A DNA stretch of 64,000 bases. It comes from Sphingobium nicotianae. Its GTDB lineage: Bacteria; Pseudomonadota; Alphaproteobacteria; Sphingomonadales; Sphingomonadaceae. Position 1 is the stretch's first letter. Each line of letters opens with the position of its first letter. Positions 5,349-19,626 of this stretch are shown piece after piece. Location of the stretch: NCBI RefSeq assembly GCF_018603885.1, contig NZ_JAHGAW010000012.1, forward strand, positions 62,001 to 126,000. Direction: 5' to 3'. Both the position numbers and the translations under genes were made by a program. The notes under the pieces were generated by a model. It searched no databases and was not told the DNA's origin. It worked only from the letters and a program-made list of their open reading frames with translations.

Positions 5349-6511
5349 TCCGCCGCGACCGCCGTCGCCTTGCCGGCGTCGGTGCCTTCGGCTTCCAGCT
5401 TGGCAGCCTCAATCTCGGCGGCCTTGGCTTCGACGAGGCTGACGATATGGTCGATCATCGTCTCGTCCTGGATGTGGTGATCGGTGACGCCGGACAGATA
5501 GACCATATGCTTGCCGTTGCCGCCGCCGGTGATGCCGATGTCGGTCTCGCGCGCCTCCCCCGGGCCATTGACGACACAGCCGAGCACGGAGAGCGAGATG
5601 GGCGTGTTGATATGCTGGAGGCGGGTTTCCAGCGCCTCGACGGTGCGGATGACGTCGAAGCCCTGACGCGCGCAACTCGGGCAGGAGACGACGCGCACGC
5701 CGCGGGTGCGGATGCCGAGCGACTTCAATATCTCGTAGCCGACGCGGACTTCCTCCTCCGGCTCGGCGGAGAGCGAAACGCGGATCGTGTCGCCGATGCC
5801 GGCCCAGAGCAGATTGCCGATGCCGATCGCGCTCTTGACCGTGCCGCCGATCAGGCCGCCCGCCTCGGTGATGCCGAGATGCAGGGGGCAATCGACCGCG
5901 TCGGCGAGTTGCATATAGGCGGCGACGGCGAGGAACACGTCGCTGGCCTTCACCGCGACTTTGTATTCGTGGAAATCCTGATCCTGCAGCAGCTTGATAT
6001 GGTCGAGCGCGGACTCGACCAAAGCCTCGGGGCAGGGCTCGCCATATTTCTCGAGCAGGTCCTTCTCGAGGGAGCCGCCATTGACGCCGATGCGGATCGC
6101 GCAGCCATTGGCCTTGGCGGCGTCGACCACTTCCTTCACGCGCGCCGCCGAGCCGATGTTGCCGGGATTGATGCGCAGGCAGGCGGCGCCGGCGTCGGCA
6201 GCCTCCAGGGCGCGCTTATAGTGGAAATGAATGTCCGCGATGATCGGCACCTTCGCGGCGCGGACAATCTGCTTGAGCGCGGCGGTCGACTCGACGTCCG
6301 GGCAGGAAACGCGGATGAGGTCGACGCCGGCCTCCTCGCAGCGGCGGATCTGGTCGATCGTCGCGCGCGCGTCCGAGGTCGGCGTGTTGGTCATGGTCTG
6401 CACGGTGATCGGCGCGCCGCCGCCGACGGGCACGTTGCCGACCATGATCTGGCGGCAGTCGCGCCGCGCAATGTCGCGCCAGGGGCGCAGGCCGGGATTA
6501 TGCTCGGACAT
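5345..6511 (-). CDS. ispG: 4-hydroxy-3-methylbut-2-en-1-yl diphosphate synthase
   Basis: 388 residues, full length. IspG (GcpE) converts 2-C-methyl-D-erythritol 2,4-cyclodiphosphate to HMBPP in the MEP isoprenoid pathway. The N-terminal TIM-barrel is marked by [11 protein letters not shown] and [11 protein letters not shown]. The C-terminal iron-sulfur domain has C277-x-x-C280, C312 and E319 ([10 protein letters not shown]), which ligate the 4Fe-4S cluster. The C-terminus carries a charged, alanine-rich extension ([20 protein letters not shown]). Two small genes follow with overlapping codons, making a three-gene operon. Confidence 0.97.
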
Positions 6512-6605
6512 TTGGGCTCCGCGGGAGAGGCGTCATGGCGGGCTTATAGCGACGCGAGGGAGCGGAGGCGAGGGTGGAGTTGGGGTCGGTACGGGAGCGC
6601 GATAG

Positions 6606-6941
6606 TCAGGACTCGGGGTCGGCCTTTGGCGACGCCTTGCGTTTCCTGGCGATGTTTGCGCTTTCCGCCTTGAGCGGGCGGGAGACCGGGCAGACCTCCT
6701 GGACATAGGCGTTGAGCGTGTTGGTCAGATTGTCCGGCATGAGCCGGTAGTAGATAAATTGTCCGCGTTTATCGCTCTCGATGAGCCCGGCATTTTCGAG
6801 AATCGCGAGATGCTGCGAGACAGCAGGCTTGGACATGGCGAATCGCGAGGCGATCTCGCCCGCATTCAGCTCGGTATGCGCCAGATAGGCGAGAATCTTC
6901 CGGCGCGGCGAGGAGGACAGGGCTTCGAAAATCTTCTGCAT
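6606..6941 (-). CDS. ArsR/SmtB-type repressor, divergent from a desaturase
   Basis: 111 residues: an HTH of the ArsR class (LNAGEIASRFAMSKPAVSQHLAILENAGLI) followed by a basic wing (KRGQFIYYRL). Only one cysteine (EVCP) lies in the C-terminal helix, so neither a metal CxC site nor the two-Cys persulfide switch of BigR/SqrR is evident. It starts at 6941 and faces the desaturase-like gene at 7029. Twin 19-bp repeats in the shared intergenic region are likely operators. The inducing signal is unknown. Confidence 0.88.
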   Translation of the reverse strand: MQKIFEALSSSPRRKILAYLAHTELNAGEIASRFAMSKPAVSQHLAILENAGLIESDKRGQFIYYRLMPDNLTNTLNAYVQEVCPVSRPLKAESANIARKRKASPKADPES

Positions 6942-6948
6942 GGGTTGG

Positions 6949-7008
6949 TATTTAAGGAATAAGCTAACCACTTGACAAGGGCAACGCATTATTTAAGAAA
7001 TTAGCTAA
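6949..7008. promoter_or_regulatory. two direct repeats, candidate ArsR operators
   Basis: TATTTAAGGAATAAGCTAA (6949-6967) and TATTTAAGAAATTAGCTAA (6990-7008) differ at only 2 of 19 positions and are 41 bp apart. The second is also part of an inverted repeat TATTTA..TAAATA (6990-7011). They fill the AT-rich gap between the divergent repressor and desaturase genes; the second ends just upstream of the desaturase Shine-Dalgarno. Repression of both genes is inferred. Confidence 0.65.
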
Positions 7009-7028
7009 ATAGCTTGAGGAGTCGAGTC

Positions 7029-7994
7029 ATGAGGGAAGCGCAGGATCGATGCCAGGTCAACAGCCTGGTCGAGACAGCGGGATGCAGTCCCGTCGAGGGC
7101 GTCGTGCGCTGGGAAGCGGTCCATTCGCTCTGGAATGGCAGCATGCTCGCCGTCTCGCTGCTTGTGGCTCCGCTGCTGTTCAGCCCGAGCGCGTTCCTCG
7201 TCTTTCTGCTGCTCACCGGGGCGTCGCTGCTGCTCGGGCATAGCGTGGGCTTCCATCGCCGGCTCATACATCGCAGTTTCGATTGCCCCCTGTGGCTCGA
7301 GCGGGTGCTGGTGTGGATCGGCACCTGCGTCAGGATAAGCGGGCCGTTCTGGATGATCCGCGCCCATGATCTGCGCGACTGGGCGCAGCGACAGGCCGGT
7401 TGTCACGACTATCTCGCGCATCGCCGCCCCATGCTGATCGATGCCTGGTGGCAGATGCATTGCCGGCTGGCGCTTGCCCATCCGCCGCACTTCGATCTCG
7501 GCCGCGCGGGCCGCGATCCTTTCTACCGCTTTCTCGAAGCGACCTGGATGGCGCAGCAGTTGCCCATCGCCGCGCTGCTGTTTCTCGGCGGGGGCTGGTC
7601 ATGGGTCGTGTGGGGCGTGTGCGTGCGGGTCAGCGCCAGCGTGACAGGGCACTGGTTCGTCGGGCATCTTGCCCACCGGCGTGGCCCGCAGAACTGGCTG
7701 GTCAAAGATGCCGGCGTACAGGCTCATGACGTGCCCTGGGCCGCGATTCCGACCATGGGCGAGGCCTGGCACAACAACCATCATGCCTTCCCGGGCTCGG
7801 CGCGCATCGGCCTCTATCCCGGTCAGAGCGATTGGGGCTACATCTTCATCCGGCTGCTCGCCTCGGTGGGCCTGGCATGGAAGATCATGCTGCCTGAGGA
7901 TTTACAGCGCGTCGACGCGCTTCGGCGTGCGCCGCGTGTGGAAACTCCACGGGCAACACGCGCTGCAACCGCAAGCAGGAGTCTGAGCCGGTGA
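7029..7994 (+). CDS. fatty-acid/acyl-CoA desaturase-like membrane protein
   Basis: 321 residues with four to six membrane helices and the histidine boxes of a di-iron desaturase: H71-x4-H76-x4-H81 (HSVGFHRRLIH) and H248-N-N-H-H (WHNNHHAFPGS). The middle box is altered: where stearoyl-CoA desaturases have HRxHH the protein reads RAHDLRDWAQRQ. It may therefore be a divergent hydroxylase or desaturase, or bind metal differently. The start at 7029 is preceded by TTGAGGAG. It is divergent from the ArsR gene and probably controlled by it. A small membrane-protein reading frame follows with a GTGA overlap. Confidence 0.82.
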   Translation: MREAQDRCQVNSLVETAGCSPVEGVVRWEAVHSLWNGSMLAVSLLVAPLLFSPSAFLVFLLLTGASLLLGHSVGFHRRLIHRSFDCPLWLERVLVWIGTCVRISGPFWMIRAHDLRDWAQRQAGCHDYLAHRRPMLIDAWWQMHCRLALAHPPHFDLGRAGRDPFYRFLEATWMAQQLPIAALLFLGGGWSWVVWGVCVRVSASVTGHWFVGHLAHRRGPQNWLVKDAGVQAHDVPWAAIPTMGEAWHNNHHAFPGSARIGLYPGQSDWGYIFIRLLASVGLAWKIMLPEDLQRVDALRRAPRVETPRATRAATASRSLSR

Positions 7995-8179
7995 GCCGCT
8001 TTTCGATGCGCAATCCAATCGGCCCGCTTGCCTATCTGCTTCTTGCCCCGCCGCTGTTGTTCGCGCAGCAGATCGCCACTTTGTTTGTCTTCAAGGCAGC
8101 CGGGCAAGGGTTCGATCCTGATCTTCTCTTCTGGCTGATACCGCTGCGCGCCGTATTGTCGCCCCGCTTGGGGGGATAG
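7991..8179 (+). CDS. short membrane-protein reading frame, possibly truncated
   Basis: 62 residues from a GTG that overlaps the desaturase stop (GTGA). It has one or two hydrophobic segments (PLAYLLLAPPLLFAQQIATLFVF) and ends abruptly in LIPLRAVLSPRLGG, as if the start of a larger integral membrane protein had been cut off by a deletion. A convergent gene begins to end 36 bp later, so no further part of such a protein remains. It could equally be a genuine small membrane protein; I cannot decide from sequence. Confidence 0.4.
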   Translation: MSRFSMRNPIGPLAYLLLAPPLLFAQQIATLFVFKAAGQGFDPDLLFWLIPLRAVLSPRLGG

Positions 8180-8214
8180 AAGCGCTGGGGTGAATCGATA
8201 TTCGGCGATCAGCC

Positions 8215-8493
8215 CTACTCCTTGCCACCCCAACGCCAGCGCCAGCCGCCGCGCGTCTTGCGCTGGCATATGCGCACGAAGAGTAGGGTGGCGGCGACGG
8301 CGAGCGCGAAGAACAGCATCGCCTGCGCCGGATGCAAGGGCGCGAGCGAGATGCCGAGCAGCATGATGCCGGGCAACAACAGGAGAAAGGACAGCATCAG
8401 CACCCAGCCCTGCCAGGCGATGGGCAGGCCGGCGCCGAGGCCATAGCGCTTTGGCGCGAACCAGGCGCCTTCCTCGAAGAGTTTGTGCAGCAT
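8215..8493 (-). CDS. small two-helix membrane protein, unknown function
   Basis: 92 residues. Two clear transmembrane helices (about 30-50 and 57-76) are followed by a short, strongly basic and tryptophan-rich tail (RICQRKTRGGWRWRWGGKE). The N-terminus is amphipathic (LFEEGAWFAPKRYGLG). I do not recognise a named family. The start at 8493 is supported by GGAAGGAAG a few bases upstream. It is a single gene, flanked upstream by a palindromic repeat. Confidence 0.7.
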   Translation of the reverse strand: MLHKLFEEGAWFAPKRYGLGAGLPIAWQGWVLMLSFLLLLPGIMLLGISLAPLHPAQAMLFFALAVAATLLFVRICQRKTRGGWRWRWGGKE

Positions 8494-8520
8494 GCGCTTT
8501 TCTTCCTTCCGTTTTCCTCC

Positions 8521-8588
8521 CCTCGTCATCCCAGCGAAAGCTGGGATCTGGTCCGCACGAGATCCCAGCTTCCGCTGGGATGACGAGG
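8521..8588. repeat. palindromic repeat, CGTCATCCC family (copy 2, best conserved)
   Basis: A near-perfect 68-bp palindrome starting CCTCGTCATCCCAGCGAAAG and ending with its complement, with GATC at the inner turn of each arm. It lies between two same-strand genes. This is the clearest copy of the four-member family in the window and could form a long hairpin in RNA. Confidence 0.85.
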
Positions 8589-8597
8589 AGTGAGTAT

Positions 8598-9473
8598 CTA
8601 GACCCTGGTCATCGTCCACTGGCCGTCGTTGCCCTTGCAGGCCTGATAGGTCTCGGCCTGCTCGGCTTCGCCCGGCACGCTGACGCTCTGGGTCACCATC
8701 TTGCAGCTGTTGGCGGCGACCAGCGTCGAGCGCTTGAGCAGGGCGGCCGAGACATAGCCCTGGCCCACGCCATTCTCGGAGACCAGCATCCAGGGCTGGC
8801 CCTTGACCTGTGCCGGCACCCAGACGCGCTGGCCGGCAGGCAGCGTCGCGCGCACGGCGGCGCTGGTGCTCGGGGCGCCGCGCAGATTGACGCTGCTGCT
8901 GGTCGTGTAGCTCTCGCCGATCTTCACATAATTGCCGGCCGGCTCGACGCCCGAGGCGAAGCGCAGATTGCCGAGGCCGGCGCCGTCGCTCGTGCCGTTG
9001 ACGACGTCGACGCGGCCGGATGCACCGGTCTCCTCGTTGCGCCAGCTCTGGCTCGTGCCGGTGTCGAGCGCGGCCTGCGCTGCGCGCTCGGCCTTGTCGC
9101 GGTCATTGCGCTGCAGCTTGCAGCCGACCGCCGAGCCCGCCGCCGCACCGAGCGCGCCGCCGATCAGCGTGCCGAGCGTGCGGCTGCCCGATCCGGCGAT
9201 GCGATTGCCGAGCAGGCCGCCCGCGACGCCGCCGATCGCCGCCGCGATGCCCTGCTTGTTGCCCTCCGCCGAGCAACCGAGAATGCCGCCGAGGAAGCCG
9301 CGATCGTTGGAGCGGGCCTGGCCATAGCCGCCATCCTGTGCGGCGAGGACTGGGGCATTGCCGCTGCTCGTCTGGGGCTGGGCCTGCTGCGTCGCCTGCG
9401 TGCCGATGGCGGCGGCGGGACCGGCGGCAGCGAGGGCGGCGAGCGAAGCGGCGGTGACGAAGGTGCGGATCAT
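8598..9473 (-). CDS. exported glycine-zipper / SH3-domain protein
   Basis: 291 residues. A signal peptide (MIRTFVTAASLAALAAAGPAAA) is followed by a low-complexity stretch, a double glycine-zipper segment (about 74-117, GIAAAIGGVAGGLLGNRIAG and GTLIGGALGAAAGSAVG), a strand motif seen in RT0821/17-kDa surface antigens (SQSWRNEETGASGRVDV), and a bacterial SH3 domain (about 188-247, SVNLRGAPSTSAAVRATLPAGQRV). This architecture fits a periplasmic or outer-membrane-associated envelope protein that touches peptidoglycan. GGAGAG precedes the ATG. It is transcribed alone, and its molecular role is unknown. Confidence 0.85.
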   Translation of the reverse strand: MIRTFVTAASLAALAAAGPAAAIGTQATQQAQPQTSSGNAPVLAAQDGGYGQARSNDRGFLGGILGCSAEGNKQGIAAAIGGVAGGLLGNRIAGSGSRTLGTLIGGALGAAAGSAVGCKLQRNDRDKAERAAQAALDTGTSQSWRNEETGASGRVDVVNGTSDGAGLGNLRFASGVEPAGNYVKIGESYTTSSSVNLRGAPSTSAAVRATLPAGQRVWVPAQVKGQPWMLVSENGVGQGYVSAALLKRSTLVAANSCKMVTQSVSVPGEAEQAETYQACKGNDGQWTMTRV

Positions 9474-9574
9474 AAAGATGCTCTCCTCATGGGGGTCATT
9501 GGGCCGGATTCGCGCATGTTTCGGGCTTCGGTTCAAGAGTCCGCGCGGCAGAACGCCCCAGACGTTACATGCCT

Positions 9575-9775
9575 TCATAGATCGTCCTTCGGCGGGCGTC
9601 CCCGCTTGCGCGCTTCGGGCGGGGCGAGCCTGACGCCGCGCTTCGCCAGCCCCTCGCGCAGCATCAGCTCGATCTGCGCGTTGACGCTGCGCAGCTCGCC
9701 GGCCGCGCAGCGCTGCAGCGCATCGAAGAGGGCCCGGTCGACCCGCAGCGCGAAGGGCTTTTTGGCCTCGCTCAC
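9575..9775 (-). CDS. Arc-like ribbon-helix-helix DNA-binding protein
   Basis: 66 residues: KPFALRVDRALFDALQRCAAGELRSVNAQIELMLREGL is a typical ribbon-helix-helix unit (Arc/MetJ fold), followed by a basic tail RKRGRPPKDDL that resembles an AT-hook. It starts at a GTG (9775) with GGAGG upstream and lies 20 bp after the SPFH gene, so the two are cotranscribed. The palindrome in front of the SPFH gene is a natural candidate operator. No toxin gene is next to it. Confidence 0.82.
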   Translation of the reverse strand: MSEAKKPFALRVDRALFDALQRCAAGELRSVNAQIELMLREGLAKRGVRLAPPEARKRGRPPKDDL

Positions 9776-9795
9776 CGTCCCGTGGTCCTCCGCTC

Positions 9796-10716
9796 CTATT
9801 GATAGAGCGAGCCGGCATTGACGACCGGCTGCGTGTCCCGCTCGGAGCAGAGCACGACCATGAGGTTGGAGACCATCGCCGCCTTGCGCTCGTCGTCCAG
9901 CTCCACGACTCCCTTCTCGGAAAGCATGGTCAGCGCCATCTCGACCATGCCGACGGCGCCCTGCACCAGCTTCGAGCGCGCGGAGATGACCGCTTCTGCC
10001 TGCTGACGGCGCAGCATCGCCTGGGCGATCTCGGGCGCATAAGCCAGATGGGTGAGGCGACACTCGTCGATGATCACGCCGGCGCGCGTCACCCGGTCCT
10101 GCAGCTGGTTCTCGAGCTGCTCGCTGACTTCGGCCGCGTCGCCGCGCAGGGTCACCTCATGATGCTCGATGTCGTCATAGGGATAGCGCGAGGCAATGAC
10201 GCGGATCGCGCTCTCGATCTGGATGTCGACGAACTCCTGATAATTCTCGACATCGAACAGCGCCCGCGCCGTGTCGGTCACGCGCCACACGACGTTGGTG
10301 GCCACCTCGATCGGGTTGCCGCGCAGATCGTTCACCTTGATCGTGTCCGAGGTCACATTGTGGATGCGCACCGAGATTTTCTTGCGGGTGAGCCAGGGCA
10401 GCAGCCAGCGCAGGCCGGCGCTGCGGTCCGTGCCCTTGTAGGTGCCGAAGAGCTGGATCGCCGCCGCCTGATTGGGCGAGAGCAGATAGAAGCCCGCGAC
10501 CGTGAAGGCCGCCAGCAGGGCGCCCCCGATGATCGGGATGATGCCGATCTCGGGCCGGTCCGGCACCAGCGTGAGGCCATAGATGATCGCGGCGATGGCG
10601 AGCAGCAGCACGATCAGCATCGGATAGCCGCTCATCGTTGCGGCTTCATATTCCTGCGACGCGGTGAGTGCGGGGCCGCGTGGCGCCGAGTCGCTGACGG
10701 AATTGGCGGTGTTCAT
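9796..10716 (-). CDS. SPFH/Band-7 domain membrane protein
   Basis: 306 residues: two N-terminal membrane helices (about 32-50 and 60-80), then a Band-7 domain with the strand pattern [28 protein letters not shown] start, [30 protein letters not shown], and a long coiled region [35 protein letters not shown] proteins oligomerise into membrane microdomain scaffolds, often with a protease partner; none is adjacent here. The start at 10716 follows GGGAGG. The downstream ribbon-helix-helix gene probably regulates the pair. Confidence 0.9.
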
Positions 10717-10737
10717 ATCAAGCCTCCCGAAAAATCA

Positions 10738-10756
10738 TGATATCATATTTATATCA
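10738..10756. promoter_or_regulatory. inverted repeat in front of the SPFH gene
   Basis: TGATAT-CATATTT-ATATCA, 22 bp upstream of the SPFH start codon; the left half is itself the 8-bp palindrome TGATATCA. It overlaps the only AT-rich segment of the promoter region, so a bound protein would block transcription. The co-encoded ribbon-helix-helix protein is the obvious candidate (inference). Confidence 0.5.
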
Positions 10757-10841
10757 TTCACCGGAGGGGTGCAATGCCGTGCGACGGGTGGGGGAACCTG
10801 CGGGAATCTCGCTCGTTGCGACGTGTGGAAGGGGAAGAGAC

Positions 10842-11069
10842 GTGACCCATCTACCCGACATGACATCGTTCGCCGCCGGCTATGTATTGCTCTATCATGA
10901 GGGCCATGTGAACCATTGCCCCGGCTGCGAGGGAACCCACTGGTTCGTCGGCCGCACCAGCGCGCAATGCGCCCGCTGCGAGACCGCGCTGCCGCTCGCG
11001 CAGATGACGGAGACGGCCAACCGCCCTTTGTTCGTCAGCCGGTTCAGCACCACAGCCTGCCACGCCTGA
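10842..11069 (+). CDS. small zinc-ribbon protein, unknown function
   Basis: 75 residues. Two CxxC pairs (NHCPGCEGTHWF and AQCARCETALP) form a probable zinc ribbon between an aromatic N-terminal part (SFAAGYVLLYHEGHV) and a short C-terminal tail. The start used is the GTG at 10842, which follows GGGGAAGAG; an ATG at 10860 is an alternative. No partner is evident: the neighbours are divergent (SPFH) and convergent (SMP-30). Confidence 0.68.
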   Translation: MTHLPDMTSFAAGYVLLYHEGHVNHCPGCEGTHWFVGRTSAQCARCETALPLAQMTETANRPLFVSRFSTTACHA

Positions 11070-11073
11070 GCGC

Positions 11074-11952
11074 TCAGCCGGCGAAGGGTGGCTCGGGCAG
11101 GCCCGGCACCGCGACCGGGAAGGAGAAGAGCGCGCCGGCATGCGGCTGCGCGGCAAGATCGGCATCGGACAGCCCGCTGCGTGCGGTCGTGACATAGGCG
11201 GTGCGCAGGTCGGCCCCGCCGAACGCGATCATCGTCGGCCGGCTGGCCGGCAGCGTAACGGTCTGGAGAATTTCGCCCTCAGGGGACAGGCGCACGACGC
11301 GGCCGCCATCGAACAAGGCGCTCCAGTAGCAGCCCTCGGCATCGAACGACCCGCCGTCGGGGCGGCCCTTGCCCTGCTCGAACTGGTGGACGATGCGGCG
11401 CCCGGAGAGCGTTCCGGCGACCGGATCGACGTCATAGCCGCGCAGCGCATGGCTCGGCGTGTCGGCGTGGCGGAAGACGGTGCCCTCGGCATTGAAGGCG
11501 GCGCCGTTGCAGGTCAGCATGTCGCCCTCGACCCAGCTGATCGTGCCATCCGGGTCGACGCGGTAGAGTGCGGCGTCGCGCGCGCTCTTGGTCATGTTGA
11601 CGCTGCCGACCCAGAAGCGGCCGGCCGGATCGGTGCGCCCGTCGTTGAAGCGGATGTCGCACTTGCCGGCGAAGATCTGGTTGCCGAAGGGCACAGGCGT
11701 GCCGTCCCAGTCTTCCAGCAGCGCCAGCCCGTCCTTCATCGCCAGAATGAGGCCGCCGGCCTTGCGGAAGGCGAAGCAGGCCACCGGCTGGTCGAACCGC
11801 CGCACCTCATCAGTGCCGGTCGCGGGATCGAAGCGGTGCAATTCGCGGGCATCGATGTCGACCCAGTAGAGGCGCTGCTCTCCGCCATGCCAGCGCGGCC
11901 CTTCGCCAAGGCTGGCGCGCGCGTCGAGGGCGATGGAGACGGGGCGAGTCAT
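11074..11952 (-). CDS. SMP-30/gluconolactonase family protein
   Basis: 292-residue six-bladed beta-propeller. Family metal ligands are visible: Glu17 in the first strand (LGEGPRW), Asn in DMLTCNGAAF, and Asp in GRPDGGSFDAEGCYW. Members hydrolyse sugar lactones such as gluconolactone or L-arabinonolactone in the cytoplasm with a divalent metal. The start at 11952 gives the normal family length. No sugar dehydrogenase or transporter is adjacent, so the sugar is unknown. The stop lies 4 bp from the convergent zinc-ribbon gene. Confidence 0.9.
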   Translation of the reverse strand: MTRPVSIALDARASLGEGPRWHGGEQRLYWVDIDARELHRFDPATGTDEVRRFDQPVACFAFRKAGGLILAMKDGLALLEDWDGTPVPFGNQIFAGKCDIRFNDGRTDPAGRFWVGSVNMTKSARDAALYRVDPDGTISWVEGDMLTCNGAAFNAEGTVFRHADTPSHALRGYDVDPVAGTLSGRRIVHQFEQGKGRPDGGSFDAEGCYWSALFDGGRVVRLSPEGEILQTVTLPASRPTMIAFGGADLRTAYVTTARSGLSDADLAAQPHAGALFSFPVAVPGLPEPPFAG

Positions 11953-12182
11953 GGCGCTCGTGAATGTCGCCTTTCCGACCCGGAAGCAAGGGTCCGCGCG
12001 GCGCAGGACAAGTGACAATATCGTGACGGCATCGTTCCGAAGCGGCACGAATATTAACCATGATATACGGTAAACGAAGGTTTAATCGACTATAACGTCC
12101 GTTAATATCGTTTGCGTGGAGTGCGTTGCGATCTTCTGGTGGAGGAGGTCGAACCGCTACCGCAGAGCAGTGGGAGTTTGCC

Positions 12183-12923
12183 ATGACTATTCGTCTTCAT
12201 ATGCTGGGCGCCGTCAGCGCTCTGACCTTCTTTGCTTCGCCGGCCCTGTCGGCCGTCGAGATGTTCGACAATGCCGTTACCCTGAGCCCGACTCAGGCCG
12301 CCGGCGCCTGGTACACCGACCGTTACGCGCCCAACGGGTTCGTTTCGCCGGTTGTCTTCGATGGTGACAATCGCCTCAAGCAGACGATCAGCTCGGCCGA
12401 TCTCCAGGCGAGCGAATTCTACAATACCCAAGGCCGCAAATATGACGTCAACACGACGTCGGCCAGCATCCAGCTCTATGTGCCCCAAGCCTGGTCGACG
12501 ACCAATGCACGCATGGCGAGCTTCTGGGCAACCGGCAACGGATCGGACCCGATCTATCCGATCATCGAGTTCAACCAGGGCGGTTTCCGCGTGTGGGACT
12601 CGGGGAATGGCTGGGTCAATCTGGCCGGTGCCGTCAACTATGACTCATGGTACTCGCTGAGCTTCGCGATCAACGGCAGCAATGTCGACTATAAGGTCGG
12701 CAATCTCAGCGCGTCGGTCGACGCCTATGGCGCCACCTCGCTCGTCAACGTCATGCTGCAGGGTCACAACACGCAGGGCGTCGCGAGCTACGACATCTAC
12801 TGGGACAACCTCTCGACGCCGGCTGCTGTTCCCGAGCCGGCAACCTGGGCGCTGATGATCGGCGGTCTCGCCCTCGTCGGTGCCAGCATGCGTCGTCGCA
12901 AGACGACCGTCGCCTTCGCCTGA
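12183..12923 (+). CDS. PEP-CTERM sorting-domain exported protein
   Basis: 246 residues. A signal peptide (MTIRLHMLGAVSALTFFASPALS) precedes an exported beta-rich domain (RYAPNGFVSPVVFDGDNRL.. WDSGNGWVNLAG), and the C-terminus has the sorting signal VPEPATWALMIGG, a hydrophobic helix and the basic cluster RRRK. Such proteins are processed by exosortase and delivered to the cell surface or the extracellular polysaccharide. GGGAG precedes the ATG. The AT-rich region at about 12020-12115 is likely its promoter. A strong terminator follows. No exosortase gene is present in the window. Confidence 0.92.
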   Translation: MTIRLHMLGAVSALTFFASPALSAVEMFDNAVTLSPTQAAGAWYTDRYAPNGFVSPVVFDGDNRLKQTISSADLQASEFYNTQGRKYDVNTTSASIQLYVPQAWSTTNARMASFWATGNGSDPIYPIIEFNQGGFRVWDSGNGWVNLAGAVNYDSWYSLSFAINGSNVDYKVGNLSASVDAYGATSLVNVMLQGHNTQGVASYDIYWDNLSTPAAVPEPATWALMIGGLALVGASMRRRKTTVAFA

Positions 12924-12943
12924 TCCAGGACGAAGCGATGTGA

Positions 12944-12987
12944 GGGGCGCGTTGCCGACTGGTCCCGGCAACGCGCCCCCTTGCTTT
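12944..12987. terminator. intrinsic terminator after the PEP-CTERM gene
   Basis: A perfect 14-bp stem GGGGCGCGTTGCCG / CGGCAACGCGCCCC (12944-12957 and 12966-12979) with an 8-base loop, followed by CTTGCTTT. It separates the PEP-CTERM gene from the convergent winged-helix regulator operon and may serve both. Confidence 0.85.
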
Positions 12988-12992
12988 GGGCC

Positions 12993-13604
12993 TCACGCCA
13001 GAGCGCCGGTCACCAGCGCATAACCCGCGCCGCGCACCGTGCGCAGCATCGGCCAGGCGAAGCCGCGATCGAGCCTGGCGCGCAGTCGCGAGACGTGAAC
13101 TTCCACGACATTGGTGCCGGGATCGAAGCCGAGCCGCCAGACCGCGCGCAGCAGCGCCTCGCGCGAATGAGGCTGGTCCGGGCAGGTGGCGAGATAGTTC
13201 AGCAGCTCGAACTCGCGCTGAAGCAGGCCGAGCGTGCGCCCCTGCCGCCGCGCCTCGCGCTCGATCAGGTCGATCTCCAGCTCACCCAGCTGCATCTGCG
13301 TCTCCGGACCCTGCCGCAGGCTGGTGACGATCGCGACGAAGCGCAGGCAGCGCGCCAGTGCCTCGTGCGTCGGCATCCAGGGGCCGATGCCATCGAGAGC
13401 GCCGAGGCTGAGGGCGCTGGCTCGATCGATGGAATCATCCTGCCATTGCCAGATCAGGGCGTGGCGCGGCAGGCCCGCCGGACCGCGCGGCAGGACGGCC
13501 AGCACCGGCTGGACATGGGCATTGCGCAGCGCCTGGACGAGGGCGCTCAGGCAAGCGTCCCGCCGGTCACCTTCCTCACAGAGCCAAAGATCGATGCGCT
13601 GCAC
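12993..13604 (-). CDS. winged-helix (OmpR-type) regulator with an atypical N-terminus
   Basis: 203 residues. The C-terminal half (about 105-200) is an OmpR/PhoB DNA-binding domain: LGLLQREFELLNYLATCPDQP.. LLRAVWRLGFDPGTNVVEVHVSRLRARLDRG.. VRGAGYALV. The N-terminal half has the length of a short receiver but lacks the acidic pocket, the phospho-acceptor Asp on a hydrophobic strand and the KP motif, so phosphorylation is unlikely. It begins at a GTG, 36 bp after the cupin-like gene, and is the last gene of the operon that starts with the 43-residue peptide. Confidence 0.85.
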   Translation of the reverse strand: MQRIDLWLCEEGDRRDACLSALVQALRNAHVQPVLAVLPRGPAGLPRHALIWQWQDDSIDRASALSLGALDGIGPWMPTHEALARCLRFVAIVTSLRQGPETQMQLGELEIDLIEREARRQGRTLGLLQREFELLNYLATCPDQPHSREALLRAVWRLGFDPGTNVVEVHVSRLRARLDRGFAWPMLRTVRGAGYALVTGALA

Positions 13605-13640
13605 TGTCCCCCCGAATGGCGCGCGCTGAGTCGAGCGAGA

Positions 13641-14588
13641 CTAGGCGATCCGCGCCCGCGCGGGAGATGGGATTGATCCGGATCGGAGCAGGTCGAGCGA
13701 CCGCGTGCCAGCCCGGCGCAGATGCGGACAGGTGCTGCGCAGCGCTGTCTCGGCATGCGCGAGGCGCGCCTCGTGGTCGTCGGTCGCCGCGTCGATCGCG
13801 CTCCACGCGGCGAGGCGGATGCGGGGGTCGTCGTGGCCGCGCATGAAGCTTTCGGCGAGGTCGCGGCCATTGCCACCAAGCTCATCGCTGTCGAACTGCA
13901 CGCACAGGCGCAGCAGCAGCTGGGCGCTGGTCGCCGTCATGTCGCGGATGATGCGGCCGCCTTCGACATCGAAATGATATTGCCTGCGCGCACACTGCGC
14001 CTCCGTCAGGGTCATGACGTTGATCGAGACTGACAGGCTTTCGGGCGGAAGCTGATCGTGAATATCGCGATTGGCCCGGTAGAGCAGCATCTTGTCCGGC
14101 GAGAGCTGGCTGCGCTCGACGAAGCGCAGGTCGACCGGCTCGCCCGGCAGGCCCAGGATGCTCTCCGGCTCGACCTCGTAATAGTCGGACCAGTAACCTG
14201 GGCCGAGATGGCCGATCGTCAGGAAGTCGAAGGCGTGATCGTGCGGGAAGTCATAGAAGAAACTCGCCGCGCCGCTGGTGCGCAGGCAGGGCTCGCCCGC
14301 GCTCGGCCAGATATTGGCGCGCAGGAAGAAATTGCCCTCGGGCGGATGCAACAGGATGACCTGCGCCGAATAGGTGTTGGTGGCGAGCTGAGTGCGGCAA
14401 TTCTCCTTGAGTGCATCCAGTGCGAGGGCCGGGAGGAACTCCCGATTGTTGCCGAGCGCGCGCAGGACGGGTGCGACCGCGAGCAGGCCATCTGTGCTGC
14501 CGCCATCGAAGGCCGGGGAGCGGCACGCATCGGCGAGGTCGGCCACATCGGCGACCTGATCGGTCTCGTGAGCGAGCAGGAGAGGCAT
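13641..14588 (-). CDS. cupin-like protein with C-terminal HEAT-like helices, unknown function
   Basis: 315 residues; not a family I can name. The centre has a cupin-like strand set with closely spaced histidines, FFYDFPHDHAFDFLTIGHLG (H116, H118, H127), and a second conserved-looking patch LLYRANRDIHDQLPPESL (H177), which together could hold a metal. The last 80 residues (DDPRIRLAAWSAIDAATDDHEARLAHAE) resemble a HEAT repeat. Its ATG shares one base with the stop of the upstream gene (TGATG), so the two are coupled. An enzymatic or sensor role is possible; function is inferred only from fold-like features. Confidence 0.7.
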   Translation of the reverse strand: MPLLLAHETDQVADVADLADACRSPAFDGGSTDGLLAVAPVLRALGNNREFLPALALDALKENCRTQLATNTYSAQVILLHPPEGNFFLRANIWPSAGEPCLRTSGAASFFYDFPHDHAFDFLTIGHLGPGYWSDYYEVEPESILGLPGEPVDLRFVERSQLSPDKMLLYRANRDIHDQLPPESLSVSINVMTLTEAQCARRQYHFDVEGGRIIRDMTATSAQLLLRLCVQFDSDELGGNGRDLAESFMRGHDDPRIRLAAWSAIDAATDDHEARLAHAETALRSTCPHLRRAGTRSLDLLRSGSIPSPARARIA

Positions 14589-15460
14589 CAGGCCGCCTCT
14601 CCGATGGAGCCATGCCGCGCCAGCACGGCCTGCGCGGCATGGCGGACGCCCTCGTCGGGGTCGTGCGCCGCCATGCGGGCGAGATAGGGCCAGGCCGCGA
14701 TGGCATCGAGCGCGAGCAACTCGCGCATCACCGTCCAGCGCTCACGGCCGGAGGGGCGATCGAGCATGCCGATCAGCACGGGTATGGCCTCGCGCGTGCC
14801 GGCGGCGCGCAGGACGGACATGAGCATGCCGGCCCGGGCGAAGCCGTCGTCGCCCTGCACGGTACCGAGCGGGCGGCCATCGTCGAGCGCGAGCCTGCGT
14901 ATGGGGGGCGCCGGGCGGCGGTCGATGCGGCCATGGAGCATCAGGACGGGGCGATCCTGCGGCTCGATGCGCAGGGTTTCGTGGCGCTCGTCGAGCGACA
15001 GCCACTGGCCGGGCAGGAGCGAGATCGCCCGCGTGTGCAGGCGGTCCCCGTCATGCTTGCCCAGCATCGCCTCGACCGGCGTCGGCGACAGGAGCCGGTA
15101 GAGACCGCGCGCGCCGGAGAAGCTGATATGCGGCTGGCCGACGATCCGTTCGCCATCGTCCCCGCGCTCGGCCGCCCCCTCGATCAATCCCAGCGCCAGG
15201 CGCACCGGTGGCTGGGCGGCAAGGGTCATGCTCAGGATCGAACCACTGCTCCGCACGGCCGATTGGGTCGGCAGTGCCGCAGGATCGCCCCGCATCGGCG
15301 CGATCCAGTGCGTGGCAAGCGCGAAGAGCCAGTCAATGTCCGCAAAAAGTGGCGCGAGGCATTCGGCCGCCTCGTCAACGTGCGACGCGGCCGCTGCTTC
15401 GGCAACGGCATCGAGCATCCGCTGGCGGGCATGTCGGGGTTTGCCCGGCGCCGTCGCCAC
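14588..15460 (-). CDS. HEAT-repeat protein with a beta-rich central domain, unknown function
   Basis: 290 residues from a GTG at 15460. A helical N-terminus (about 1-60, FADIDWLFALATHWIAP) leads to a beta-rich middle (HISFSGARGLYRLL.. ISLLPGQWLSLDERHETLRI) that resembles the downstream gene's cupin-like region. The C-terminus (210-285) has clear HEAT repeats (REAIPVLIGMLDRPSGRERWTVMRELL and AAWPYLARMAAHDPDEGVRHAAQAVL). It sits 5 bp after the short peptide gene and overlaps the next gene. The two proteins share overall architecture and may be distant paralogues acting as partners. Confidence 0.72.
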   Translation of the reverse strand: MATAPGKPRHARQRMLDAVAEAAAASHVDEAAECLAPLFADIDWLFALATHWIAPMRGDPAALPTQSAVRSSGSILSMTLAAQPPVRLALGLIEGAAERGDDGERIVGQPHISFSGARGLYRLLSPTPVEAMLGKHDGDRLHTRAISLLPGQWLSLDERHETLRIEPQDRPVLMLHGRIDRRPAPPIRRLALDDGRPLGTVQGDDGFARAGMLMSVLRAAGTREAIPVLIGMLDRPSGRERWTVMRELLALDAIAAWPYLARMAAHDPDEGVRHAAQAVLARHGSIGEAA

Positions 15461-15465
15461 GCCCG

Positions 15466-15597
15466 TCAGCCGGTGATTATGGCGATGATGACATAGGTCT
15501 CGCCGCCCTGCAGGCTGGCCATGTCGACCGCTGCGTTGAATAGGGCGGCTTCGTCGTCAAGCAAGGGCAGCTCGTCGATGGCAATGGTTTTGGGCAT
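15466..15597 (-). CDS. 43-residue peptide, candidate modified-peptide precursor
   Basis: The peptide has an acidic leader-like part (residues 1-32, with DELPLLDDEA) ending in LQGG, and a hydrophobic tail of 11 residues (33-43, ETYVIIAIITG). The GG at 31-32 with Leu at -4, Met at -7 and Asp at -8 loosely fits a double-glycine cleavage site. It is the first frame of a tight operon (stop only 5 bp before the HEAT gene). No modification enzyme or C39-peptidase transporter is recognisable nearby, so the precursor idea is an inference. It could also be a small regulatory peptide. Confidence 0.58.
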   Translation of the reverse strand: MPKTIAIDELPLLDDEAALFNAAVDMASLQGGETYVIIAIITG

Positions 15598-15663
15598 GGA
15601 TCGTCCGTTTCTTGGCGGGGCCTGGCTCTGAAAGGCTAGGCGAAGCGCTGCCGGCGATTCCAA

Positions 15664-16437
15664 TTACATCGGTGTAATTCGCAGGATGACGGTGAGGCCC
15701 GGCGCGCCGGGAACTGTCGCATCCACAGGCAGGACGATCCGCGCGGCGTCGGCGCGGGCGCGGGCGAGGATGGCGTCCGGCACGCGGCCGTCATGGACGA
15801 TGCGGTCGGCAAGGCCGAGCGACCGCGCCTCGCGCAGGGTGAGGTCATCCGGATCGGCCGAGCGCAGGTGAATGATCTGCGTTTCCGCGGCCAATCCGTC
15901 GCCGGGCTCATCGAGCCAGAAGCCGACATCTGGATCGGCGCCGAGCGGATCGAGCACACCTTCCGGCGCCAGCGCGCGAGCGAGCATGTGGCGCCGCTCG
16001 GCGGGATCTGGCCAGATCGCGCGCATTTCGCTCCGCGCGGCGTGGAGCGCCGTCGCGAGGTCGCCGAGCCGGGCAGGCAGCAGATTCTCGAGCCGCTGGC
16101 GCAGCGCGGCGGCGAGGCCCGCCGACATGCCGCCGGTGGCGATGGCGACAAGCACCGGATCGCGATCGACGATCGCCGGGGTCGTGAAGTCGCACAGGGC
16201 CGGGCGGTCGACGACGTTGATGAGCAGCCCGCGCGCCTTGAGCCGTGCGGCGACGGCTGCGGCCTCGGCCTCGTCATCCAGCGCGACGAAGGCAATGCGC
16301 GCTTCGCCATTGTCCTCGCCGACCGGCATGGCGCCCGCGCGCGCGATCAGGCGGCGCTTGGCGTCCGCTGCCTCGCCGGTGCCGATCAGGATCACTGGTC
16401 GACCGGCCAGGGTAAGGAAGAGGGGCAGGCTATGCAT
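15664..16437 (-). CDS. precorrin-2 dehydrogenase / sirohydrochlorin ferrochelatase-like protein
   Basis: 257 residues, similar to the N-terminal (CysG-B, Met8-like) half of siroheme synthase: a Rossmann start (RPVILIGTGEAADAKRRLIARAGA), VVDRPALCDFTTPAIVDRDPVLVAIATGGMSAGLAAALRQRLE, and the dimerisation helices. It would oxidise precorrin-2 and insert iron to make siroheme for sulfite or nitrite reductase. The last 70 residues (IIHLRSADPDDLTLREARSLGLADRIVHD) look like only the beginning of a SUMT methyltransferase domain, so the protein appears to be a shortened CysG. AGGAGG precedes the start. Confidence 0.88.
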   Translation of the reverse strand: MHSLPLFLTLAGRPVILIGTGEAADAKRRLIARAGAMPVGEDNGEARIAFVALDDEAEAAAVAARLKARGLLINVVDRPALCDFTTPAIVDRDPVLVAIATGGMSAGLAAALRQRLENLLPARLGDLATALHAARSEMRAIWPDPAERRHMLARALAPEGVLDPLGADPDVGFWLDEPGDGLAAETQIIHLRSADPDDLTLREARSLGLADRIVHDGRVPDAILARARADAARIVLPVDATVPGAPGLTVILRITPM

Positions 16438-16495
16438 GGTCTGCCTCCTAACAGTTTCCTGAAACGAGAACGAGCGCTGCCGGATGGCTCAAGCG

Positions 16496-17758
16496 CTAAT
16501 CCTGCAGGAAAGCCGGCACATGCTCCGCCGCGAGGATGGTCTCGGGGAGGATGCGGTCGGCGACCACGGCGAACTTGTCGCCGTCGACCATCACTTCGGG
16601 CACCAGCGCGCGGCTGTTGTAAGTGCTCGCCATCGTCGCGCCATAGGCGCCGGCGGTGCGGAAGACCGCGAGGTCGCCGCTCTTCACCACGTCGATGTCG
16701 CGCGCCATGGCGAAGGTGTCGCCGCTCTCGCAGACCGGGCCGGCGATATTGGCGATCATCCGCTCGCCGGTGGGGGCGACGGCCTCGAAGTCGTGCCAGG
16801 CATCATACATGGCGGGCCGGGCGAGATCGTTCATCGCCGCGTCGACGATGATGAAGGGGCGGACCGCGCCGGGCTTCACCCAGATGACACGGGTCAGCAG
16901 CACCCCGGCATTGCCGACGATGACACGGCCCGGCTCGAAATAGAGCGTGACGTCCCAGCCCTTCGTCGCACGCTCGACCATCGCGCCGTAATCGGCCGGC
17001 GTCGGCGGCACCTTGTCGCGCTCGTAGGGCACGCCGAGGCCGCCACCGAGATCGACGCGGTCGATGGCGTGACCTGCAGCGCGGAGCTGCGTGACCAGCT
17101 CGCCGACCTTGCGATAGCCCGCCTCGATCGGCGCGAGATCGAAGATCTGGCTGCCGATATGCAGCGCCAGCCCACGCAGGTTCAGCCCCGGCAGCGCAGA
17201 GAGGCGGGCGAAGATGCCGGGCGCCTCGTCGATCGGCACGCCGAACTTGTTCTCCTTCTTGCCAGTCGAGATCTTGGCATGGGTGCCGGCGTCCACGTCC
17301 GGATTGACGCGCAACACCGCATCGGCGCGCTTGCCCATTGACGCGGCGATCTGCCCAAGGACGGCGCCTTCCTCCTCCAGCTCGATGTTGAACTGGCCGA
17401 CACCGTCTTCCAGCGCCGCCTTGAGCTCGGCATGGGTCTTGCCGACGCCGGAGAAGACGATGTCGTGCGCCGGCATGCCGGCCGCCAGCGCGCGCTTGAC
17501 CTCGCCGCCCGACACGACATCCGCGCCATAGCCCTGCCGCGCCAGCACCTTCAGCACGGCGAGGTTGGGATTGGCCTTGATCGCGAAGGCGATGTGCTTG
17601 CGTTCGATGCCGCGGAGTGCGTCCCGGAACACCTGCGCATGGCGCTCCAGCGTCGCGCGCGAATAGATATAGACCGGCGTGCCGACCGCCTCGGCGATCA
17701 GGCTCAGCGGCACATCCTCGGCGTGGAGCACGCCGTTCCTGTAATTGAAATGATCCAT
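16496..17758 (-). CDS. lysA: diaminopimelate decarboxylase
   Basis: 420 residues, full length. The PLP enzyme converts meso-diaminopimelate to L-lysine. K61 in FAIKANPN binds PLP; GGGLGVPY and EPGR bind the phosphate; the C-terminal barrel has GPVCESGD (catalytic Cys) and AGAYGATMASTYNSR. It is the last gene of an argH-lipoprotein-lysA operon, an order common in alphaproteobacteria, starting 12 bp after the lipoprotein stop. Confidence 0.97.
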   Translation of the reverse strand: MDHFNYRNGVLHAEDVPLSLIAEAVGTPVYIYSRATLERHAQVFRDALRGIERKHIAFAIKANPNLAVLKVLARQGYGADVVSGGEVKRALAAGMPAHDIVFSGVGKTHAELKAALEDGVGQFNIELEEEGAVLGQIAASMGKRADAVLRVNPDVDAGTHAKISTGKKENKFGVPIDEAPGIFARLSALPGLNLRGLALHIGSQIFDLAPIEAGYRKVGELVTQLRAAGHAIDRVDLGGGLGVPYERDKVPPTPADYGAMVERATKGWDVTLYFEPGRVIVGNAGVLLTRVIWVKPGAVRPFIIVDAAMNDLARPAMYDAWHDFEAVAPTGERMIANIAGPVCESGDTFAMARDIDVVKSGDLAVFRTAGAYGATMASTYNSRALVPEVMVDGDKFAVVADRILPETILAAEHVPAFLQD

Positions 17759-17770
17759 GGTAGCCGCTTT

Positions 17771-18214
17771 CTATTGCGCGCTGTTGCCCGGCGGTGCCGG
17801 GGTGGGTGTCGCTGCATTCGGGGGCGGCGCGTTCGGGTCGTCCGGCCGGTCGTCATCGGGGTTGATCGATCGCGGCATGCCCTCGCGCGTGTCGTTCCTG
17901 TCCTGCGCCGTGTTGGTCGGTTTGGGGACGGACGAGGGGCCCTCGCCGCCGCCGCGCAGCGCCGCGCGCCCGCTGTTCGGCCCGGGCGGCAGCGCGAAGG
18001 GATCGTCCTGGCGTTCGACCGATCTGGTGAGCAGGTCGGCCTGCCGGTCCGGCTGGGCCTGGGTGGACGGGGTCATCAGCTCGGCGGCTGTCTCGATTCG
18101 GTCGGCCGCCGCCGCCTTGGGGACGGCGGACATGCCTTCGGTCGGCCGCAAACGGGTGGTCGATCCGCAGCCGGCGAGCGCGACCAGCAGGGCGAGCGTC
18201 AGGGCGCGCCTCAT
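17771..18214 (-). CDS. small lipoprotein between argH and lysA
   Basis: 147 residues: [17 protein letters not shown] is a lipoprotein signal with Cys16; the rest is a disordered, proline- and asparagine-rich chain ([24 protein letters not shown]). Start and argH stop overlap as ATGA. In other proteobacteria a small lipoprotein next to lysine genes (LptM/YifL) assists LptD maturation; only the location and the lipobox agree here, so I do not assign the name. Confidence 0.72.
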
Positions 18215-19626
18215 TGCCCGGCCTCCACATCGAGCGCGGCCCGCGCCTCGGCGATGCGGGCGCGCACCTGGTCGGGGGCCGTGCCGCCATAGCTGGTCCG
18301 GCTCGCCACCGAGGCATCGACGGTCAGCACGGCATGGACGCGCGCGTCGATGCGTGGGTCGATCGCCTGCAACGTGTCGAGCGGCAGGTCTGCGAGCGTG
18401 GCGCCCGCCTGCTCTGCCGCCTTCACCACGCGGCCGGTGATGTGATGCGCCTCGCGGAACGGGACATTGGCCTCACGCACCAGCCAGTCGGCCAGGTCCG
18501 TCGCGGTCGAGAAGCCGCTCTCGGCGAGCGCGCGCATGCGATCGGTGCGGAAGAGCGTTGTCTCGACCATGCCTGTCATCGCGGTGATCGACAGGCCGAG
18601 CAGGTCGTGCGCCTCGAAGAGCGGCGGCTTGTCGTCCTGCATGTCCTTCGAATAAGCGAGCGGCAAGCCCTTCATCGTCACGCAGAGCGAGGTCATGCAG
18701 CCCACGATGCGCCCGGCATGGCCGCGCACCAGCTCGGCCGCGTCCGGATTGCGCTTCTGCGGCATGATCGAGCTGCCGGTCGAATAAGCGTCGGGCAGCG
18801 AGATGAAGCCGAACGGCTGGCTCGCCCAGATCACGAACTCTTCGGCGAGGCGCGAGAGGTGCAGGCTGCACTGGGTGGCGGCCATCAGATAATCGAGCGC
18901 GAAGTCGCGGTCGGAGACGCTGTCGAGGCTGTTGCGGGTCGGACCGTCGAAGCCGAGCGCCGCCGCCGTCATGTGCCGGTCGGTCGGGAAGCCGGTGCCG
19001 GCGAGCGCCGCGGCGCCGAGCGGCGAGAGGTTGATCCGCGCACGCGCATCGGCGAAGCGCGAGCGGTCGCGCGCGATCATCTCGTGATAGGCCATGAGAT
19101 GATGACCGAGGGTCACCGGTTGAGCGCTCTGCAGATGGGTGAAGCCGGGCATGACGCTGTCGGCATGCTCGGCGGCGCGGTCGATGAGGGCGCGCTGGAG
19201 CAGGTAGAGGCTGGCATCCACCTCGTCCATGGCGTCGCGCACGAACAGGCGGAAGTCGGTCGCGACCTGGTCGTTGCGCGAACGGGCGGTGTGGAGGCGC
19301 CCGGCGACGGGGCCGATCTTGTCGGCGAGGCGGCTCTCGGTCGCCATGTGAATATCTTCGAGGTCGAGATCGTGCGGCAGGTCGCCGGCCTCATACTCGG
19401 CGTGGATCGCCTCCAGCCCGGCGATGATCGTCGCCGCCTCGTCGGCGCTGAGGATACCTTGCGCGCCCAGCATATTGGCATGCGCGATGGAACCGGCGAT
19501 GTCCTGCCGCCACAAGCGCTTGTCGAACGGCAGCGAGGCATTTATCTCACGCATGACCGCAGCCGGTCCGGCCGCGAAGCGTCCGCCCCACATGCTGTTC
19601 GCGCCCCTGTTGTCGGAGTCCGCCAT
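18211..19626 (-). CDS. argH: argininosuccinate lyase
   Basis: 471 residues from 19626. ArgH splits argininosuccinate to arginine and fumarate, the last step of arginine synthesis. Signatures: [10 protein letters not shown] at the N-terminus, HTARSRNDQ (112-120), the general-base His in GFTHLQ (H164), and the catalytic serine loop [11 protein letters not shown] (284-294). An in-frame ATG at 19593 (immediately before WGGRF) gives the usual family length of about 460 and is an alternative start. With the longer start, its ATG overlaps the ATG of the divergent TlpA gene (CATG). The gene opens the argH-lipoprotein-lysA operon. Confidence 0.95.

Follow-up and report, generated by a model that had tools for sequence, protein, structure and literature searches.

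Ribosomally synthesized and post-translationally modified peptides (RiPPs) come from systems in which a short precursor gene is co-encoded with modifying proteins; an exporter or a protease is common in such clusters, though not obligatory. Here we describe a four-gene operon (genes A to D) in a 64,000-nucleotide stretch of the Sphingobium nicotianae genome (contig NZ_JAHGAW010000012.1), which we call the window. The operon may work like a RiPP maturation system, with membership in that group hanging on modification of the peptide. On balance, we favor a minimal system of the RiPP type, in which A would be the precursor, B would present it and C would oxidize its tail.

A partner protein occurs in the operons of the MNIO/DUF692 RiPP enzymes. 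As described in excerpts of the literature, these clusters (MbnB, TglH) likewise hold a short precursor gene and an iron-type enzyme. However, MNIOs form a separate family, DUF692, for which Pfam gives no match to C or B, and both proteins here are predicted HEAT-bearing cupins of the thiol-dioxygenase type. The signature of 2-oxoglutarate oxygenases is HxD/E...H. RiPP oxygenases of the HEXXH and 2-oxoglutarate types (PflC/PosC in the excerpted accounts) resemble the proposed system in their oxidative tailoring of peptides, but C conserves HxH...H instead of either motif and has no such hit in Pfam or NCBIfam.

The outer-sphere triad of cysteine dioxygenase is Ser-His-Tyr. In its cupin fold type, C resembles the thiol dioxygenases that act on cysteine, 3-mercaptopropionate and mercaptosuccinate (PDB 8vni, 4tlf, 6xb9). 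In contrast to them, it has no sequence-family match, is fused to HEAT helices, is paired with a metal-less relative and is linked to a peptide gene, and the triad is not seen in it. C is predicted to work like an enzyme of the thiol-dioxygenase fold, but we do not file it in that family because it fails on sequence and seems to differ in its triad. D recalls the atypical response regulators and pseudo-receivers in the excerpted text of a 2025 review (PMC12632262), since it likewise joins an OmpR-type winged helix to a receiver apparently without phosphorylation residues; unlike those in the excerpts, it belongs to a peptide operon and occurs in some clades only. We found no description of a peptide–B–C system in the excerpted open-licence PMC literature, a scope that leaves subscription papers aside.

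The operon and its distribution

A preliminary description of this DNA gave four tightly packed minus-strand genes, and its spacings are exact on re-reading of the sequence. The stop of A lies 5 bp before the start of B, one base is common to B and C (TGATG at 14588), and 36 bp separate C from D (Table 1). We confirm that the operon is real and not a chance arrangement, because the peptide–B–C layout recurs in related loci and because the peptide shows fewer nonsynonymous than synonymous changes per site (pN < pS). That description had also treated all four genes as one unit; the peptide, B and C do occur together, and D is found apart from them.

In 199 genomes of the same family, taken as Sphingomonadaceae, C occurs in 74 and B in 72, the latter being a subset of the former. 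In every one of the 72 genomes that have B, a B match sits directly 5' of a C match on the same strand, with −60 to +250 bp between their ends. Three B matches are unpaired (G542, G452 and G510), each in a genome that also holds a paired B. Four C matches are unpaired: one of two C pieces in G560 and in G556 (the latter at a contig edge), the C of G535, where a divergent B is present, and a C fragment in G571, which has no B. Wider samples gave C in 5 of 385 genomes of the class (four same-family) and in 15 of 398 of the phylum (13 same-family). Distant named carriers are Stenotrophomonas, Xanthomonas campestris and a Rubrivivax metagenome-assembled genome (MAG), and only two of 72,556 plasmid records match, from Alteromonas stellipolaris and a Vibrio. 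Among named loci, that of Sphingobium xanthum (L004) is the nearest, with C 72–73% identical. At least 1076 proteins are related to C; among those listed, the names are none, "hypothetical protein" (JGI) or "transposase" (NCBI). We ruled out a transposase, since C has no transposase domain in Pfam or NCBIfam and is predicted to have a thiol-dioxygenase-type fold; the name is probably an error spread by propagation.

Two unusual settings were also seen. The Vibrio plasmid (L131, 5210–6766) carries short B and C proteins without HEAT hits beside restriction-modification genes, with a 59-residue Cys-containing open reading frame (ORF) downstream of B–C and no clear upstream peptide seen. Second peptide–B–C copies are present in two genomes (L127, 6707–10582; L128, 7095–10977) and differ little from their surroundings in GC content at third codon positions (GC3); the directly adjoining YidC-like gene, named by eye, suggests an insertion spot.

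The peptide

A short ORF before B was picked in 75 of the 79 related loci, at the same position and with a similar shape, a count that leans toward the expected shape because the picks used a score of our own writing; the loci are not independent, some being nearly identical. An alignment of the picks reveals a common front motif. The four loci without a pick are L014 (no B called), L061 (no convincing peptide), and L065 and L079 (no candidate), the last two having short B ORFs near contig ends. Among close pairs of peptides (equal length, at least 60% identity, not independent of each other), pN is below pS in 126 of 126, with a median pN/pS of 0.35. In this selected short gene, co-encoded with candidate modifying proteins, the operon resembles RiPP systems. 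Neither A nor ten of its relatives match anything in Pfam or NCBIfam.

The wider set of 87 peptides consists of the 75 from the loci, that of the window and 11 from further relatives. They are 36–60 residues long with a mean net charge of about −4.7 (D, E, K and R counted), and the share of I, V and T rises from 24% in the first 18 residues to 37% in the last 18. When hydrophobicity was scored by one measure, 68 of them had the midpoint of their most hydrophobic 10-mer in the C-terminal half. Candidate peptides also precede B–C in six further loci, with endings such as GIVITIAVVIL and GVVIIVIAITINVL; the candidate of L126 differs, with LSAIGG at its leader end and a non-hydrophobic remainder. 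Cysteine is present in 21 of the 87, each with one in the C-terminal half, and stands out in a Sphingosinicella-type clade (EVGGPVC); the window peptide has none.

Three readings of the peptide were rejected: oxidation of cysteine as the general reaction, given the number of peptides that have one; N-degron oxygen sensing as in plant PCO/ADO, given that the aligned peptides lack an N-terminal cysteine; and a single-pass membrane protein, given tails that often have 8–14 residues and are interrupted by Asp in some clades. Hydrophobic tails would also fit an unmodified bacteriocin- or toxin-like peptide, for which B–C would be a chaperone or immunity factor, and the ABC-2 permease and MacB-type transporters beside relatives are in keeping with this. 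However, the window tail of about 11 residues is short for a transmembrane helix, the enzyme-like metal site of C is conserved, and PADLOC returns no match, so that we hold this reading to be very improbable. The lack of a PADLOC match also rules out a known defence system.

The paired cupin–HEAT proteins

AlphaFold2 models of C and B, with a mean predicted local distance difference test (pLDDT) of 88 and 92, respectively, and fold comparison bear out the cupin-like and HEAT-like parts first proposed for both large proteins: each matches a thiol-dioxygenase-type cupin, fused to HEAT helices. The VIA rows shown for C and B all belong to the cupin superfamily as far as recognised. The preliminary description also called the two proteins partners or distant paralogues, and both hold, through their constant adjacency and their profile similarity, by which B and C look like distant paralogues. 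Nor does C fall in a characterised sequence family. It matches nothing in Pfam or NCBIfam at E up to 10, nor in PADLOC, and against PDB sequences (E up to 10) it gives five chance-level hits with no thiol dioxygenase among them; in the Pfam, NCBIfam and PADLOC searches, B matches HEAT alone.

In C, residues H116, H118 and H177 form a putative three-histidine iron site. The motifs that hold them (HxH and the third His) are kept in 78 of the 79 loci, and the third-histidine motif is found in none of the 79 B proteins. In-frame stops are reported for C in several genomes; of the three such loci inspected, two (L101 and L103) have the stop at the natural C-terminus, and the third (L104) had been read in the wrong frame.

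The best fold matches of C are enzymes of the mercaptosuccinate/3-mercaptopropionate dioxygenase type, which B matches too. This would suit a small-molecule thiol dioxygenase like these, with B as inactive partner and A as regulatory subunit. Yet C lacks a match to a sequence family, bears an extra HEAT domain and has a constant paralogue beside it, and S-x-S/T-x-N stands where Ser-His-Tyr would be looked for. No recurring sulfur genes were noticed nearby, as far as rough gene calling goes, and the peptide arrays of relatives would be left unexplained. We regard this explanation as improbable.

Peptide arrays and exporters in relatives

On the Alteromonas plasmid, the gene order is Yip1, HlyD, ABC ATPase, MacB/FtsX permease, two short unannotated peptide ORFs, B, C, ABC ATPase and ABC-2 permease. 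The Sphingomonas trueperi cluster (L054, L132; in L132 at 5610–18432) has four precursor-like peptides and two B–C pairs. Its first part runs sigma factor, small protein (no family above cut-off), peptide, B, C and MarR-like protein (below the Pfam cut-off), and its second part three short peptides, B, C, ABC exporter, HlyD, ABC ATPase and two MacB/FtsX permeases. These three extra peptides carry LPSLELEAG, LPTLDLEVG or LPALDLDVA near their start and differ in their hydrophobic ends. Exporters were thus found in L130 and L054/L132, with relatives in L023 and L049, where the ABC exporter is 68–69% identical to that of S. trueperi; the queried exporters are absent beside the window operon. We prefer a RiPP-type system over a sensor chiefly because peptides with a common front and varied ends, modifying proteins and exporters together make up the layout of a peptide natural-product cluster. 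Neighbour clustering, for which a rough gene caller was used, antisense ORFs were also kept and families were named by eye, gave no third partner present throughout.

Other neighbours recur in parts of the family. In loci with Cys peptides (L035, 2607–4022; L027, L050 and L054), the peptide comes after a sigma-70-family gene (Pfam-checked in L054 only), often with a small protein as well, and these replace D and the upstream box. In Sphingobium loci (e.g., L007, L009 and L013), TetR-like, outer-membrane-efflux-like, HlyD/EmrA-like and other transport-like genes lie about 1.5–5 kb 3' of C; these genes, named by eye, recur in about 7–12 loci.

Regulator D and the upstream box

D contains a Trans_reg_C domain (PF00486, residues 123–197, E 4e-19), and NCBIfam response-regulator models align to it only from about residue 50, below their cut-offs. 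No conserved phospho-Asp or Lys was seen in its N-terminus when 20 rows of a 44-sequence alignment were compared by eye with the motifs of receivers, and the receiver is apparently degenerate, without phosphorylation residues. D adjoins C in 43 of the 79 loci (C stop to D start −14 to 66 bp) and is not detected beside the other 36, among them loci such as L032 that stop shortly past C; in some loci its place is taken by a MarR-like protein or a sigma-factor gene. Thus, D is not an obligate part of the operon but a clade-specific addition. A family-wide search could not separate D from other OmpR-type proteins among the matches listed.

A near-palindromic box lies upstream of the peptide. A scan of the genome (4.43 Mb) gave a single site with at most one mismatch to TTACANNGATGTAATTNG, and the box TTACACCGATGTAATTGG likewise has one site genome-wide with one mismatch allowed. 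The related pattern TTAM-N6-KTAAY, written after inspection of the sequences, precedes the peptide in 49 of 75 cases (74 loci and the window, L059 having been dropped for its short upstream stretch) vs 0.07 expected from a mononucleotide shuffle. It accompanies 35 of 43 loci with D vs 14 of 32 without, and members of the Cys-peptide clade (L016, L023–L025 and L027) have neither box nor D. D may bind this box; since the box is also present in loci without D, another regulator is possible. In 21 of the 49 box loci, an octamer like CATAGCCT/TTAGCCT begins 21–22 nt past the box, by a search pattern that did not match the window's own copy. A sigma-70 consensus scan found no promoter.

The apparently degenerate receiver of D and the single-copy box before the operon would also suit a sensing module, in which the unmodified peptide is the ligand or small subunit of a B–C sensor, the cupins bind a small molecule, metal or O2, and D signals to the promoter. 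Short hydrophobic tails after an acidic residue presumably resemble the streptococcal SHP pheromones (Rgg/SHP), which we count in its favor. Against it, D is undetected beside 36 of 79 loci while the histidine motifs of C stay in 78, and peptide arrays, two B–C pairs and exporters suit production better. We consider a sensing module unlikely. The preliminary description had offered both a peptide-modifying unit and a sensory module with the regulator as roles; the former has gained from the enzyme-like metal site in C and from the arrays and exporters of relatives, and the latter has lost ground through the patchy presence of D.

Proposed mechanism

In the RiPP-type system that we favor, A would be a precursor with an acidic leader that bears a loose [IL]-P-x-L-type motif, followed by a short C-terminal core rich in I and V, which in the window peptide may be E33–G43 after Gly-Gly. 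B, as a metal-less paralogue of C, would bind the leader and hold the precursor as the partner of C. With iron in its three-histidine cupin site and O2, C would oxidize residues of the hydrophobic core. As most tails lack sulfur, one would naturally think of hydroxylation or desaturation of aliphatic residues as the reaction. The HEAT helices probably make the B–C and peptide contacts. In the D-bearing clade, D would act on the near-palindromic box to regulate the operon and might itself respond to the product; we hold this tuning of expression, possibly through product sensing, with less confidence than the maturation itself. More tentatively, the operon could stand for a new RiPP class, in which a HEAT-fused cupin pair, one active and one pseudoenzyme, oxidizes an aliphatic I/V-rich core with three-histidine iron and O2 but no co-substrate, and the product feeds back on a pseudo-receiver in one lineage. 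Such a class would be common in sphingomonads and extend to Xanthomonas, Stenotrophomonas, the Rubrivivax MAG and marine gammaproteobacterial plasmids.

Several observations weigh against the RiPP-type system. The similarity of B and C at the profile level falls mainly in the HEAT part and the last strands of the cupin. The outer-sphere positions of C read S-x-S/T-x-N, a reading that 77 of 79 loci combine with both histidine motifs (the correspondence to cysteine dioxygenase was drawn by eye); therefore its chemistry may differ, and ordinary thiol dioxygenation is not expected. Since cysteine is confined to a minority of the peptides and missing from that of the window, a thiol cannot be the general substrate. 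No residue type is conserved in the peptide tail, the most hydrophobic 10-mer lies outside the C-terminal half in 19 of 87 peptides, and the Gly-Gly of the window peptide is missing in its nearest relative, L004. The three extra S. trueperi peptides came from a filter for hydrophobic ends. Within the span of the exporter queries, about 5 kb each side of C and less at contig ends, matches to the ABC exporter of S. trueperi turn up in 5 of 79 loci: in L054, from which the query came, closely in L023 and L049, and at only about 29% in L016 and L063. For the HlyD, FtsX and ABC-2 queries, none of the 79 has a match. In the 64-kb window, the exporter queries gave only a weak generic ABC-ATPase match at 38.0–38.6 kb, and a protease was recognised in none of the proteins scanned.

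Boundaries of the locus

A siroheme-synthase-like gene (15664–16437) flanks the operon on its 5' side. Its product matches the N-terminal part of CysG, with only a weak and partial match to the methylase domain, and the putative operator upstream of A overlaps the stop codon of this gene. A convergent gene (12126–12923), whose PEP-CTERM-like end was recognised by eye, flanks the D side. The inverted repeat between this gene and D may end the operon; its terminator-like score is limited to the plus strand and so applies to the PEP-CTERM gene. An Rfam scan of 12500–16500 gave nothing at the gathering threshold.

Table 1. Coordinates of the operon genes and nearby elements in the window
Feature	Position	Strand	Description
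Gene A, precursor-like peptide	15466..15597	-	ATG start, 43 aa, MPKTIAIDELPLLDDEAALFNAAVDMASLQGGETYVIIAIITG
Gene B, putative pseudoenzyme/partner	14588..15460	-	GTG start, 290 aa; thiol-dioxygenase-type cupin without metal histidines, C-terminal HEAT helices
Gene C, putative oxygenase	13641..14588	-	ATG start, 315 aa; thiol-dioxygenase-type cupin, C-terminal HEAT helices
Gene D, OmpR-type winged helix	12993..13604	-	GTG start, 203 aa; N-terminus an apparently degenerate (pseudo-)receiver
Near-palindromic putative operator AATTACACCGATGTAATT	15662..15679	-	upstream of the peptide; sequence inspection
-10-like element CCTAGCCT	15633..15640	-	sequence inspection; possible promoter element
Inverted repeat, 14-bp stem	12944..12979	.	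between D and the convergent PEP-CTERM gene; possible operon boundary

Significance

If our proposal is true, at least 1076 related proteins would become maturases of an undescribed family of modified peptides. The action of a thiol-dioxygenase fold on sulfur-free aliphatic tails would extend the range of this fold as known to us, and a system of three genes is small enough for direct testing. Bacterial pseudo-receiver switching is called a mystery in the excerpted review (PMC12632262). D would offer a tractable pseudo-receiver, with its possible ligand encoded next door.
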